Shown here: positions 5,468-58,660 of the stretch, piece by piece
How the letters are laid out: every line of letters begins with the position of its first letter
How positions within the stretch are numbered: position 1 is the first letter of the stretch
Source: Janthinobacterium sp. GW458P
GTDB taxonomy: Bacteria > Pseudomonadota > Gammaproteobacteria > Burkholderiales > Burkholderiaceae_D
Assembly (NCBI RefSeq): GCF_002127585.1
Contig: NZ_NEGZ01000007.1
Coordinates: forward strand, 1-64,000
Reading direction: 5' to 3'
Length of the DNA: 64,000 nucleotides
The notes under the pieces: generated by a model
What the model was told of the DNA's origin: nothing
Seen by the model: the letters and a program-made list of their open reading frames with translations, nothing else
The model's database searches: none
Program-made: the position numbers and the translations under genes

Positions 5468-5492
5468 ATTCATTTAATTCTACACTTACAAC

Positions 5493-5606
5493 ACCTGACA
5501 AAACCGTAGCGAGCGGCAGCGCGGCGTGGATAAGAAGCGCAGCTGTACTGCAGTACAGCGAGCATCGCAGGCCGCGCCCCGCGACGCGCAGTAGGTTTGG
5601 TCAGGT
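5493..5606 (+). repeat. Dispersed hairpin repeat with terminal inverted repeats, copy A
   Basis: The ends ACCTGACAAAACC (5493-5505) and GGTTTGGTCAGGT (5594-5606) are inverted copies with one mismatch. The centre is a perfect 16-nt palindrome CTGTACTGCAGTACAG (5543-5558). The 98-nt interior 5501-5598 aligns without gaps to 45527-45624 (copy B) with about 13 differences by eye. An inverted third copy is at 58535-58660. It carries no reading frame of note and ends 11 nt before the EamA gene. Confidence 0.85.
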
Positions 5607-5617
5607 GAAAGGCCAAA

Positions 5618-6541
5618 ATGCAGTCACTTTGGATGTTATTCGCCAGTTTCATGTTTGCCATCATGGGCGTGTGCGTGAAACTGGCGTCGGATCTATATTC
5701 GACCTCGGAAATCGTCATGTACCGCGGCATCATCGGCATGCTCGTCATGAGCTGCACGATTCTGTACCAGGGCGGCAGCTTTAAAACGACGATGCCGGGC
5801 CAGCATCTGTGGCGCGGCGTGGTGGGCGTGATCGCCCTGTGGCTGTGGTTTTATGCCATCGCCATCCTGCCGCTGGCCACGGCCATGACCCTCAATTACA
5901 TGGCGCCCATCTGGATCGCCGTGATTCTGCTGGCCGGCGGCTGGTGGAAAGGCATGCAACAGGTCGAGTGGCCGCTTGTGGCGGCCATCGCCATGAGCTT
6001 TGTCGGCGTGACATTGCTGCTGCAGCCCGTATTCGAGACGGACCAGCTGGGCGGCGCCATCACGGCCTTGATTTCCGGCATGCTGTCGGCCCTCGCCTAC
6101 TTGCAGGTGCGCAAGCTGGGCCTGCTGGGCGAACCCGAATACCGGGTCGTGTTTTATTTCTCGGTCGTCAATTTCCTCGCCGGCGTGATCGGCCACGTGG
6201 CCAGCGCCGGCGGCGGCCCCGTCGTCTGGCATGCGCACACGAGCGCCTATGGCGTCGGCTTGCTGGCCGCCGTCGGCCTGTGCGCCACCATGGCGCAGAT
6301 GGCCATGACGCGCGCCTACCGCCTGGGCAAGACCCTCGTGGTTGCCAATTTACAATACACAGGCATCGTCTTTTCCAGCTTCTGGGGCGTGGTGATCTTT
6401 GGCGACCTGTTCGACTGGCACGGCTGGACCGGCATCGCCATCATCCTCGCCTCGGGCATCGCGGCAACCTATTACAATACCCGCAACACGGCCCGTGGCG
6501 CCGCCATCGCGCGCACGGATCCCATCGCCAGCGAAGTGTAA
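5618..6541 (+). CDS. EamA/DMT family transporter
   Basis: A 307-residue membrane protein with about ten hydrophobic helices arranged as two EamA repeats (residues about 5-140 and 150-290), the drug/metabolite transporter architecture. Motifs include YRGIIGMLVMS in the first half and a second-half GERP-like region. Probable exporter of a small metabolite; substrate cannot be deduced. The start codon follows GAAAGG and lies just after hairpin repeat copy A. The sulfurtransferase gene follows after 13 nt, so the two are probably cotranscribed. Confidence 0.9.
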   Translation: MQSLWMLFASFMFAIMGVCVKLASDLYSTSEIVMYRGIIGMLVMSCTILYQGGSFKTTMPGQHLWRGVVGVIALWLWFYAIAILPLATAMTLNYMAPIWIAVILLAGGWWKGMQQVEWPLVAAIAMSFVGVTLLLQPVFETDQLGGAITALISGMLSALAYLQVRKLGLLGEPEYRVVFYFSVVNFLAGVIGHVASAGGGPVVWHAHTSAYGVGLLAAVGLCATMAQMAMTRAYRLGKTLVVANLQYTGIVFSSFWGVVIFGDLFDWHGWTGIAIILASGIAATYYNTRNTARGAAIARTDPIASEV

Positions 6542-27346: not shown

Positions 27347-27397
27347 CTAAGGAGGTTCGGCTGTGCGCACGCGGAAAGGCGGGGTGCGTTCATCCTA

Positions 27398-27495
27398 AAG
27401 CTTCCCTTCGCTGGCATTATCCAGATCAGGTTCGGAGGGTATTTCTCACCCGCGCTTGCACTGTGTTTCCACAGCGAAAGGCAGGACCCCTAGCG
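27398..27495 (-). ncRNA. TPP riboswitch (THI element)
   Basis: On the minus strand this region contains the conserved thiamine-diphosphate aptamer landmarks in order: the P1/P2 start AGGGGTCC, GTGAGAAATACCC, GAACCTGATCTGGATAATGC and the closing CCAGCGAAGGGA. A variable arm (CGCTGTGGAAACACAG-like hairpin) separates the first two. It ends about 90 nt before the thiC start codon. Control is probably at translation initiation or by early termination; the expression platform was not resolved by eye. Confidence 0.95.
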
Positions 27496-27520
27496 TTTGC
27501 CGCCTTGCGGCAGCGAGCCA

Positions 27521-44905: not shown

Positions 44906-45445
44906 TTAACCTACTAAACGGCCGCGCTTCATGCGCAAGCCTTGCAGCTGGGGTGCCAGCGCACCGATCATGGCCAGCGCATCGACGCTGTTGGCGTGGC
45001 AAATGGCCACGCCCAGGGCATCGGCCGCATCCGTGCCGGGCAAGCCGGGCAAGGACAACAGCCGGGAAACCATCTCCTGCACCTGCTCCTTGGCCGCCTT
45101 GCCGTGGCCCGTGACGGCCTGTTTTACTTGCAGGGCCGTGTATTCGGCTACCGACAGGTCAGAATTGACGAGTGCGCAAATGGCCGCGCCCCGTGCCTGG
45201 CCCAGCAGCAAGGTCGATTGGGGGTTGACGTTGACAAACACTTTTTCGATGGCCGCGCAATCGGGCCGGTAGGTGCCGACGATTTCGCTCACGCCCTGCA
45301 GGATGATCTTCAGGCGCGGCGGCAATTCCCCTTCGGAACCCGTCTTGACGGTCCCCGACGCAATATAGCGCAGCTTGTTGCCGTGTTTTTCAATGACCCC
45401 AAAGCCGGTCGTGCGCAGGCCAGGATCGATGCCAAGAATAATCAT
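44906..45445 (-). CDS. ruvC: Holliday junction resolvase RuvC
   Basis: A 179-residue nuclease that cuts Holliday junctions. Catalytic acids are visible: D in [15 protein letters not shown] in [13 protein letters not shown], and the C-terminal [13 protein letters not shown] pair. The basic loop [13 protein letters not shown] is present. First gene of ruvC-ruvA-ruvB-DUF188. A weak -10-like CATTATAGAAT lies just upstream, next to a strong hairpin. Confidence 0.96.
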
Positions 45446-45503: not shown

Positions 45504-45513
45504 GTCACATTCA

Positions 45514-45637
45514 AAGAAGGTAGAATAAACCGTGGCGAGCGGCGATGCGGCGTGGCCGAGAAGCGCAACTGTGCTGGAGCACAGTGAGCATCGCAGGCCG
45601 CGCCCCGCGCCGCGCAGTAGGTTTAGACCGCCTTCTT
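45514..45637 (+). repeat. Dispersed hairpin repeat, copy B
   Basis: Gap-free match of 98 nt (45527-45624) to copy A at 5501-5598. The central near-palindrome is CTGTGCTGGAGCACAG (45569-45584). Outer ends AAGAAGG (45514-45520) and CCTTCTT (45631-45637) are inverted, and AAACC / GGTTT repeat the inverted ends of copy A inside them. The right end runs into the purH stop codon at 45636-45638. Confidence 0.85.
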
Positions 45638-47222
45638 AATGACGGAAGTGACGCGTGCCCGTGTACAACATCACGACGCCGCGCTCGTCCGCCGCATCGA
45701 TCACTTCCTGGTCGCGCATGGAGCCGCCCGGGTGAATGACGCAGGTCGCGCCCGCGTCGACGACGACGTCGAGGCCGTCGCGGAAGGGGAAGAAGGCGTC
45801 CGACGCCACCACGGAACCCGTCAGCGACAGGCCCGCGTTCTGCGCCTTGATCGAGGCGATGCGGGCCGAATCGATACGGCTCATCTGGCCGGCGCCCACG
45901 CCCAGGGTCATGTTATTGCCGCAGAAGACGATGGCGTTCGACTTGACGAATTTCGCCACTTTCCAGGCGAACATCAGGTCGGACAATTGCTGCGGCGTCG
46001 GCTGCAGCTTGCTGACGACGCGCAAGTCGCCGATGCCGACGTTTTTCGCGTCCGGCGATTGCACCAGCAGACCGCCGCCGACGCGCTTAAAGTCCATGGC
46101 GTTGACGCCGGCGCCCAGCGCAATTTCCAGCATGCGCACGTTTTGCTTGCTCGACAGAATCTGTTTCGCTTCGGCGGAGAACGACGGGGCGATCAGCACT
46201 TCCACGAACAGCTTGGCGATTTCGCCGGCGGTGGCGCCGTCGAGCTCCGTGTTGAAGGCGATGATGCCGCCAAATGCCGAGGTCGGGTCCGTCTGCAGGG
46301 CGCGCGCATAGGCTTCGGCCGCGTTCTTGCCCAGGGCGACGCCGCACGGGTTCGCATGCTTGACGATGACGCAGGCCGCGCTTTGCTCGAAGCCGCCCAG
46401 GCTCTTCACGCATTCCCAGGCCGCATCGGCGTCGGCGATGTTGTTGTACGACAATTCCTTGCCCTGCAGCTGGCGGTAGTTGGCCAGTGCGCCGTCGGTG
46501 GTGACGAGGTCGCGGTAGAAGGCGGCGCTCTGGTGCGGGTTTTCACCGTAGCGCATGTCTTGCACCTTCTCAAATGCAACGTTCAGGATTTGCGGATAGG
46601 CGCCGCGCTCGGCGTGCACTTTCGTCGGGCCCAGGCTGGTCAGGTAATTGGTGATGGCGCCATCGTATTGCGCCGTATGCGCAAAGACTTTTTTCGCCAG
46701 CATGAACTTGGTGTCGTAGCTCACGTCGCCCGCCTTGCCGTCGGCCGAGCGCAGCTCCGCCAGCACCGCGTCGTAGTCGGTCGGATCACAGATGACGACC
46801 ACGTCCTTGTGGTTCTTGGCTGCCGAACGCAGCATGGTCGGGCCGCCGATATCGATGTTTTCGATCGCGTCTTCCAGGGTGCAATCGGCCTTGGCCACCG
46901 TGCCCTGGAACGGGTACAGGTTGACCACCACCATGTCGATGGTCGGCATGTCGTGCTCGACCAGTTTCGACATGTGCTCAGGGAAATCGCGGCGCGCCAG
47001 GATACCGCCATGCACTTTCGGGTGCAGGGTCTTCACACGGCCATCGAGCATCTCCGGGAAACCCGTGTAGTCGGCAACTTCCGTGACGGGAACACCGTTG
47101 TCTGCCAGCAACTTTGCGGTGCCGCCGGTGGACAGGAGGTTGACGCCGAGGGCAGACAGGGCGCGGGCGAATTCGAGAACGCCGGTCTTGTCGGAAACGG
47201 AGAGGAGAGCTTGTTTGATCAT
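45636..47222 (-). CDS. purH: Bifunctional AICAR formyltransferase / IMP cyclohydrolase
   Basis: A 528-residue enzyme for the last two steps of IMP synthesis. Residues 1 to about 195 form the cyclohydrolase domain ([51 protein letters not shown]). The C-terminal formyltransferase domain has [13 protein letters not shown] and [15 protein letters not shown] with the catalytic KH pair. It follows dusB and fis on the same strand; its stop codon lies in the end of repeat copy B. Confidence 0.98.
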
Positions 47223-58110: not shown

Positions 58111-58539
58111 ATGGAATGCAAAGTCAGCTGGAATGGCCCGTCGGGCATGAGTTTTCGGGCAGAAACCGGTTCCGGCCACATGGTGACCATGGATGGCGCG
58201 CCAGATGGCGGCGGCCACAACCTGGCGCCACGCCCCATGGAAATGGTCTTGCTGGGCACGGGCGGCTGCACCGCCTATGACGTGGTGCTGATCCTGAAGC
58301 GGGGCCGCGAAGCCGTCAACGGCTGCGAAGTGACCCTGAAGGCCGAGCGCGCCGACACCGATCCGAAAGTATTTACCAAGATCCACTTCCACTTCACCGT
58401 GCGGGGCAAGGCATTGAAACCGGCGGCCGTGGAACGGGCCGTGACTTTGTCGCATGACAAATATTGCTCGGCGTCCATCATGCTGGCAAAAACGGCGGAA
58501 ATTACGCATTCCTTCGAGATCATCGAAGAAAGCGCCTGA
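58111..58539 (+). CDS. OsmC family protein
   Basis: A 142-residue protein with the two conserved cysteines of the OsmC/Ohr family, in LLGTGGCTAYDVVLILKR (near residue 53) and SHDKYCSASIMLAKT. Some members are thiol peroxidases acting on organic hydroperoxides; this YhfA-like subgroup (MECKVSWNGPSGMSF) is less well defined. The start has GGAGAG upstream and a TTACAAT -10-like element. Repeat copy C begins inside its last codons. Confidence 0.9.
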   Translation: MECKVSWNGPSGMSFRAETGSGHMVTMDGAPDGGGHNLAPRPMEMVLLGTGGCTAYDVVLILKRGREAVNGCEVTLKAERADTDPKVFTKIHFHFTVRGKALKPAAVERAVTLSHDKYCSASIMLAKTAEITHSFEIIEESA

Positions 58540-58660
58540 GCCAACCTCCTGCGCGCCGGCGTAGGCGGCCTGCGATGCTCACCGTGCTCCAGCACGGTTG
58601 CGCCTCTACCACCTCTCCCTTCCGCTCGCTACGGTTTTGCCAGGCGTTTCACGTCTCAGG
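58535..58660 (-). repeat. Dispersed hairpin repeat, copy C (inverted)
   Basis: Read on the minus strand it begins CCTGAG and contains CAAAACCGTAGCGAGCGG, identical to copy A, and the central near-palindrome ACCGTGCTGGAGCACGGT (58581-58598), then GAGCATCGCAGGCCGC as in A and B. Ends CCTGAG (58535-58540) and CTCAGG (58655-58660) are inverted copies. The left end overlaps the OsmC stop codon (58537-58539). The segment between start and centre has diverged in length from A and B. Confidence 0.8.

Follow-up and report, generated by a model that had tools for sequence, protein, structure and literature searches.

A strand-specific hairpin element of about 125 nt, dispersed at gene ends in Janthinobacterium and related across Burkholderiales

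The 64,000-nt stretch of Janthinobacterium sp. GW458P contig NZ_NEGZ01000007.1 analysed here (the window) carries three copies, A, B and C, of a hairpin element of about 125 nt (Table 1). An earlier reading of the letters alone (the sequence-only reading) had found these copies, and a covariance model places all three where it had put them; its ungapped 98-nt alignment of A and B with about 13 differences corresponds to 87% identity over 98 nt, and the central-stem sequences that it quoted agree with the letters. Copy B lies between two genes that we take by eye to be ruvC and purH, and its 3′ end overlaps the purH stop codon (45636-45638). The host RuvC shares 97% identity with RuvC of J. lividum HSC-65S10, which scored best among 80 named loci. 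The plus-strand ORF 58111-58539 takes its final two codons and its TGA stop (58537-58539) from copy C, and relatives that lack copy C have their own stop (TAA, TGA or TAG) at the same point of this ORF. The gene to the right of copy A runs in the same direction as the element and starts at 5618, which makes copy A an exception to the positional rule described below. An Rfam search of the whole 64-kb window at the gathering threshold returned nothing at the element, and four loci searched at a permissive threshold gave two weak matches elsewhere and none at the element. The sole match in the window at the gathering threshold is a TPP riboswitch at 27386-27501 (minus strand, 62.9 bits).

Table 1 Copies of the hairpin element in the window, parts of copy A and genes flanking copy B
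Feature	Position	Strand	Remarks
Copy A, entire element plus a little flanking sequence	5484..5612	+	model match 127.5 bits
Copy A, outer helix P1, 5′ arm	5490..5505	+	pairs with 5594-5609; alignment columns 7-22 with 112-127
Copy A, outer helix P1, 3′ arm	5594..5609	+	pairs with 5490-5505
Motif 1, YGAGC strand	5510..5514	+	partner 5586-5591, GCGCAG; near-invariant columns; motif by eye
Motif 1, GCGCAR strand	5586..5591	+	near-invariant columns; motif by eye
Motif 3, YRAGA strand	5531..5535	+	partner 5565-5570, TCGCAG; second column G/A, otherwise near-invariant; by eye
Motif 3, CGCAR strand	5565..5570	+	near-invariant columns; motif by eye
Motif 2, GCGCAR strand	5537..5542	+	inverted relative to motif 1; partner 5559-5563, YGAGC; near-invariant columns; by eye
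Motif 2, YGAGC strand	5559..5563	+	near-invariant columns; motif by eye
Copy A, apical hairpin P4 (central stem of the sequence-only reading)	5542..5559	+	97.7% of cells paired, 38 copies
Copy B	45510..45638	+	model match 118.2 bits; between ruvC and purH
ruvC (presumed)	44906..45445	-	ORF call; flanks copy B
purH (presumed)	45636..47222	-	ORF call; flanks copy B
Copy C	58528..58654	-	model match 109.8 bits

The family is much larger than three copies. A covariance model (R1) trained on 38 copies from the host Janthinobacterium genome gives at least 146 matches there (E ≤ 0.01) among the best 150 of 6,211 candidates scored; subtracting 7 antisense duplicates leaves at least 139 matches, of which 5 are partial (61-80 nt). 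Fewer than about ten copies genome-wide, which the sequence-only reading had named as refuting it, is thereby excluded, and a dispersed, non-coding, folded, high-copy element is supported. A 15-mer from the core occurs exactly 51 times in the 6.28-Mb draft genome and, allowing up to two mismatches, 64 times forward and 76 times in reverse; the reversed control gives 7 and 16. Flanking sequence was examined for 115 of the 139 matches. GC content of the host copies ranges from 0.49 to 0.71, and relatives in other genomes are about 125-150 nt long. Copy A has zero matches to plasmids and phages, and a copy from genome G055 has one partial match among plasmids, covering 41% of the query, on a Nitrosomonas plasmid.

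Relatives extend well beyond the host. Matches are present in 34 of 37 Janthinobacterium genomes and, among single genomes of other families, in 3 of 24 (both E ≤ 0.001), and a looser search gave one short match in G028 (E = 4.7e-4). Among 300 genomes drawn from the order, 56 match at E ≤ 1e-5, representing 32 of 140 genera with the host's own included, and the best match outside the family reaches 1.9e-23. Copy numbers at E ≤ 1e-6, with at most the best 150 candidates scored per genome, are at least 87 in G108, 32 in G199, 30 in G244 and 25 in G095.

Paired positions of the hairpin change together far more often than expected. A MAFFT alignment of the 38 host copies has double changes in 25 of 45 pairs, amounting to 164 cells against 50.0 (sd 5.4) after shuffling and 33-59 in slid controls. 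In a model-fitted cross-genus alignment, mostly of one locus per genome (39 rows, 36 loci), 35 of 41 pairs carry double changes, with 418 cells against 119.9 (sd 9.1) shuffled and 80-114 slid. A lack of covariation, the other outcome that the sequence-only reading had named as refuting it, is not what the alignments contain. The apical hairpin P4 changes between A-T and G-C and between C-G and T-A among the 38 copies, and orthologous copies at the copy B slot differ between the host genome and G025 by a compensated G-C to T-A change. At the ends, 15 of the 16 P1 pairs have two-sided changes in the 38 host copies, and across genera 14 of 15 outer-helix pairs covary, with the sequence differing from genome to genome and the arms forming constant repeats within some other genomes. 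The outer helix is paired in 84% of cells in the 38 host copies and 94% in the 39 cross-genus rows, which gives the element the terminal inverted repeats expected of a MITE.

The hairpin is interrupted in a regular way. By eye, a single motif, YRAG opposite CGCAR, accounts for all three internal loops; it is present in both orientations and leaves a bulged A and an A·G mismatch. The sixth pair of the outer helix is often a purine·purine mismatch, which is AG in 39 of the 92 host copies (of 115) in which the outer helix was located, and GA, AG or GG in 12, 5 and 2 of the 25 distant loci located. Three of the 28 distant loci (L398, L423 and L424) were not found in this location step, and two (L397 and L421) are visibly misregistered.

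The two strands are not equivalent. Over 41 pairs in 110 host copies, after 12 antisense rows were dropped, G-U pairs number 318 against 91 A-C mismatches, a count that may lean toward the modelled strand, given that a model of that same strand guided the alignment. The outer helix contributes 78 against 47 and the remainder 240 against 44, and a single pair supplies 83 of the G-U cells (83 of its 106 cells). This excess implies that one particular strand folds. Of 115 copies, the element strand also folds more stably than its complement in 102 under RNA parameters and in 111 under DNA parameters. Among the 95 copies fitting the hairpin pattern, the apical loop is TNNA in 47, GNRA in 0 and UNCG in 1, a weak hint in favour of DNA over RNA.

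The sequence-only reading took compensation to mean that the folded form is under selection. The paired changes stand, but the inference from compensation alone was too quick, because quasi-palindrome correction of DNA by template switching could also produce them without any selection on the fold. Palindromes are prone to such correction, the copy-specific outer arms are nearly or fully complementary, and the strand asymmetry is weakest in just this outer helix. However, template switching should favour neither strand and should erase G-T pairs and conserved mismatches, whereas G-U cells outnumber A-C cells 3.5-fold overall, one G-U pair persists in most copies and different families share the mismatch at outer pair 6. 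Together, the strand asymmetry and the conserved internal mismatches tip the balance to selection on one folded strand, and we regard template switching as a very unlikely source of the paired changes.

The position of the element relative to genes is equally asymmetric. With gene positions from a simple codon-usage gene caller, a right-hand gene was called for 109 of the 115 copies; it is a minus-strand gene in 91 cases, and for 82 of them the distance from the outer-helix end to its stop codon is -12 to +6 nt, sharply peaked at +1. Left-hand genes are divided between the plus (54) and minus (53) strands at broadly scattered distances, and only 7 of 107 are stop-adjacent within the same range. 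Other genomes of the genus contributed 20 loci, partly orthologous, and there the right-hand gene is on the minus strand in all 20 and stop-adjacent in 18. In the preferred orientation, the strand that folds is the one serving as template for the abutting gene. The sequence-only reading had recognized the element itself but missed both this stop-codon lock and the preferred orientation.

When open frames that run for 100-110 codons or more and end at the element are counted instead, the lock recurs in another family: copies in G199 are stop-adjacent in 23 of 25 cases on the right against 5 of 25 on the left. The distant loci give 16 of 25 against 5 of 25, and the located host copies 67 of 92 against 19 of 92. 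No lock is seen in G056 (2 of 10 right, 2 of 10 left), G055 (1 of 9 and 3 of 9) or G108 (1 of 14 and 4 of 14), and it is weak in G095 (6 of 15 and 3 of 15) and G059 (3 of 5 and 2 of 5). Stops of the 82 abutting host genes are TAA in 39, TGA in 27 and TAG in 16, and those of other genes in the same pieces are TAA in 91, TGA in 66 and TAG in 19. A T-Y-A target asymmetry was considered as the cause of the orientation lock and is weakened by this spectrum, since TAG is no T-N-A target and the 16 TAG stops count against T-N-A targeting.

A fixed place behind stop codons, together with strand-specific G-U pairs and very strong covariation, is also what one might expect of a functional RNA, in which case the folded strand would be transcribed and act either in trans or, at the 3′ end of the neighbouring gene, as an antisense element, with mobility incidental. 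Nevertheless, the folded strand is not co-transcribed with the abutting gene, and the left-hand genes show no strand preference. The Rfam result in the window and at four loci, the near absence of GNRA and UNCG loops and a copy number above one hundred in a single genome further argue against this explanation, which we consider improbable.

The same lock could instead reflect a host-selected device at the 3′ end of the abutting mRNA, such as a stabilizer, a terminator or a ribosome-stalling hairpin, exchangeable with other palindromes. Close relatives lend this some weight. At the purH-ruvC slot and the copy C slot they carry this element, other palindromic repeats, or about 40-60 nt between the anchors, and the exchange of the spacer starts at the stop codon, as if hairpins at gene ends were interchangeable. 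REPs near stop codons stall ribosomes in E. coli, as PMC12306157 states, citing its ref. 17. However, the strand present in the mRNA folds less stably and has A-C mismatches where the other strand has G-U pairs, and on visual inspection neither side of the hairpin has a consistent U-tract beyond it, with T runs in a few copies such as L055. We therefore think an mRNA 3′-end device improbable as well.

Many of the post-stop slots compared (L300-L307, L312-L324 and L331-L351) contain such other palindromic repeats, for example of the GTAGGTCGGATTAG...CCGACCTAC and GGGGTCAGACCC types. In G012 and G011 the copy C slot (L352 and L353) holds a hairpin of different sequence with GCAAGGCGCATTGCCGAAGACAGTACG, which looks like another member of the superfamily. 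Joint movement of gene and element as a cassette was set aside because copies B and C adjoin genes in conserved order.

Signs of transposition are clearest outside the host. G056 has about 140 copies with common 17-bp ends (at no more than one mismatch, the ends match 142 times forward and 138 times in reverse), and identical 3-bp flanks, mostly TAA or TTA, border 35 of its 47 measured copies against a shuffled mean of 16.5. Identical 4-bp flanks occur in 9 of 13 copies in G055 (shuffled mean 2.7) and in 10 of 12 in G108 (1.7); G095 has three measurable copies, one of them with a 4-bp repeat. In G056 and G055 the majority of copies score 30-48 bits, near the antisense scores of true copies (29-44 bits), and their membership of the family is likely but not certain, judged by these scores; stronger links are L124 in G056 (73 bits) and L125 in G059 (63 bits), and G108 and G095 score higher.

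Two of these genomes also contain an insertion sequence (IS) with matching ends. In G056 it is a degenerate 791-bp element, flanked by TTA on both sides, with one end identical and the other differing by a single mismatch, and a six-frame search finds the IS5-family domain PF13340 in it, while an ORF in another frame (L369:239-625) matches nothing in Pfam. G056 has 13 further PF13340 places, which have no matching ends in the stretches examined. The partner in G055 is 1,325 bp long, again with one identical end and a single mismatch in the other, and encodes an intact 360-aa DUF772/DDE_Tnp_1 transposase; a second element with such ends measures 1,320 bp. Four loci in G055 (L391-L394) hold a 206-bp variant with an extra internal stretch, the same ends and, at some sites, 4-bp repeats.

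The host itself gives a fainter picture. Identical triplets flank 10 of 115 copies against a shuffled mean of 4.6 and a shuffled maximum of 11, the two best of 99 registers in the target-duplication scan fall at the expected place, and of the two transposase domains sought there, PF13340 and Y1_Tnp, the former is absent. The duplications are barely visible and PF13340 is missing, so that transposition in the host is putative. The suggestion that the family is MITE-like is supported by the constant ends and short direct repeats of G056, G055 and G108; the host genome has a weak trace of target duplications. IS5-type insertion moreover leaves the orientation lock unexplained, because a symmetric MITE would insert both ways round.

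The sequence-only reading had offered REP/BIME as the other possible affiliation, and such a system would be mobilized by a TnpA-REP (RAYT) transposase. The element shares with it a GTAG, placed at the loop adjoining the outer helix, and a hairpin with mismatches, and the single-strand, strand-specific recognition described for RAYTs in PMC8266576 would suit it. A check for a solitary TnpA-REP gene nonetheless turned out negative for linkage: the host has two Y1_Tnp (RAYT) genes, and no copy lies within the 5 kb examined around each. Neither did a core search at 23 RAYT loci of the genus find any, and G055 and G056, both with relatives of the element, have no Y1_Tnp match at E ≤ 0.001. One of the two host genes (L151, 1973-2692, minus strand) has an orthologue in all 23 genus genomes examined, with the HUH motif now PDQLH or similar, and is present in genomes with anything from 0 to about 140 copies of the element. 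With a length of about 125 nt and no RAYT linkage found at these loci, a REP/BIME affiliation in the strict sense has no support, and we rejected RAYT as its mobilizer; mobilization of this kind appears highly improbable. The second host gene, L152, is an intact 214-aa RAYT. The L151 orthologue adjoins an apparent response regulator and histidine kinase, and is perhaps a domesticated, non-catalytic RAYT.

Building on the observed family, fold, strand asymmetry and stop-codon lock, and on the direct repeats and matching IS ends of other genomes, we consider it somewhat probable (roughly 0.55) that the element represents a non-autonomous family of mobile hairpins of about 125 nt, widespread in Burkholderiales, conserved as a folded single strand and spread by insertion. 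The conserved entity would be this folded strand, a long hairpin with three copies of the YRAG/CGCAR loop motif, whose outer helix is free in sequence but keeps its pairing, with a frequent purine·purine mismatch at the sixth pair. Its copies would spread by insertion. Several lineages have them as MITE-like copies with target duplications of 3-4 bp, and in two such lineages their ends match those of an IS5-family element of the same genome. The bulk of the copies in Janthinobacterium, and in at least one further family, lie directly behind stops, in one orientation and with the template strand as the folded one. We infer that the recognized molecule is single-stranded DNA rather than RNA; IS5-type transposases may have moved the Janthinobacterium copies too, and different transposases would carry the hairpin element in different lineages. 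Against insertion stands the absence of a clean footprint at slots B and C in the compared relatives, in which the whole spacer is swapped. A bolder version, which we hold to be unlikely, would make the element a structure-recognized, single-stranded DNA mobile module, with the triplicated loop motif bound by a putative protein, insertion in one orientation behind stops (template strand, the geometry of integron attC sites), free outer arms, and a core captured by unrelated IS5-type ends to give MITEs in some lineages.

Known small repeats resemble the element in part. It is similar to ERIC elements, which are intergenic, long imperfect palindromes of about 127 bp, in size, site and palindromic form, but ERIC elements have another sequence and live in other bacteria, and we know of no stop-codon lock for them. 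Integron attC sites sit behind the end of a gene, with the bottom strand folding, which the element matches in its position after the gene end and its folding template-side strand. The attC boxes are GTTRRRY/RYYYAAC; the outer arms of the element, in contrast, differ between genomes and by eye have no such constant box, and its copies are dispersed beside core genes rather than arranged in arrays. According to PMC8946536, attC sites have a structure-conserved folded strand with extrahelical bases, one strand being strongly preferred, and the fold of the element is alike in this. Its strand asymmetry would agree with attC-style recognition of a folded strand, by analogy, and binding by IntI is hypothetical.

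Like IS5-related MITEs, the element is short, non-coding and high in copy number with terminal inverted repeats, and in G056 and G055 it is bordered by direct repeats of 3-4 bp and accompanied by IS5-family elements whose ends match its own. Unlike them, it has a strand-specific folded core common to different ends, and in Janthinobacterium and G199 a preferred stop-codon position and orientation. MITEs are described as AT-rich in the review PMC10969869, whereas the host copies are not. With REP/BIME repeats as presented in PMC3733652, where GTAG REPs often give a TAG stop to flanking ORFs, it shares an intergenic site, a palindromic form and a GTAG; it differs in its length of about 125 nt against a palindrome of 20-40 bp, in a GTAG that lies within the hairpin and not at its base, in the lack of a linked RAYT and in the direct repeats at the ends of some relatives.

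Since MITEs, REPs and attC sites each fail some tested feature, we call the element a new variant of small mobile hairpins. It is apparently undescribed so far: a literature search, with most subscription papers outside its reach, found no description, and of four element strings compared with paper texts three had no match and one occurred in fruit fly and rice papers, which we take as chance. The element is abundant in a large bacterial order, in which a single genome can hold from dozens to over a hundred copies at gene 3′ ends, and sometimes supplies the stop codon of the adjoining gene. It offers a test of folded single-stranded DNA recognition of bacterial repeats beyond the RAYT and integron systems, and a concrete case of a single structured core paired with different transposase ends.

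Individual copies depart from the common form. A GC-rich insert of 13-14 nt, GGCTCGGCGCCCC, is found in the left arm of 5 of the 115 copies, with its complement in the right arm of 24 and both in 3 (for example L009, L019, L020 and L010). At the copy B slot of G020 (L309), a further palindromic insert, starting GTAGGGCGTGGG, sits within the apical loop of the element. Tandem copies occur at L046 and L411 (also at L027 and L406), and in the first two every unit has a near-identical left arm, with a matching right arm in the 3′-most unit only.
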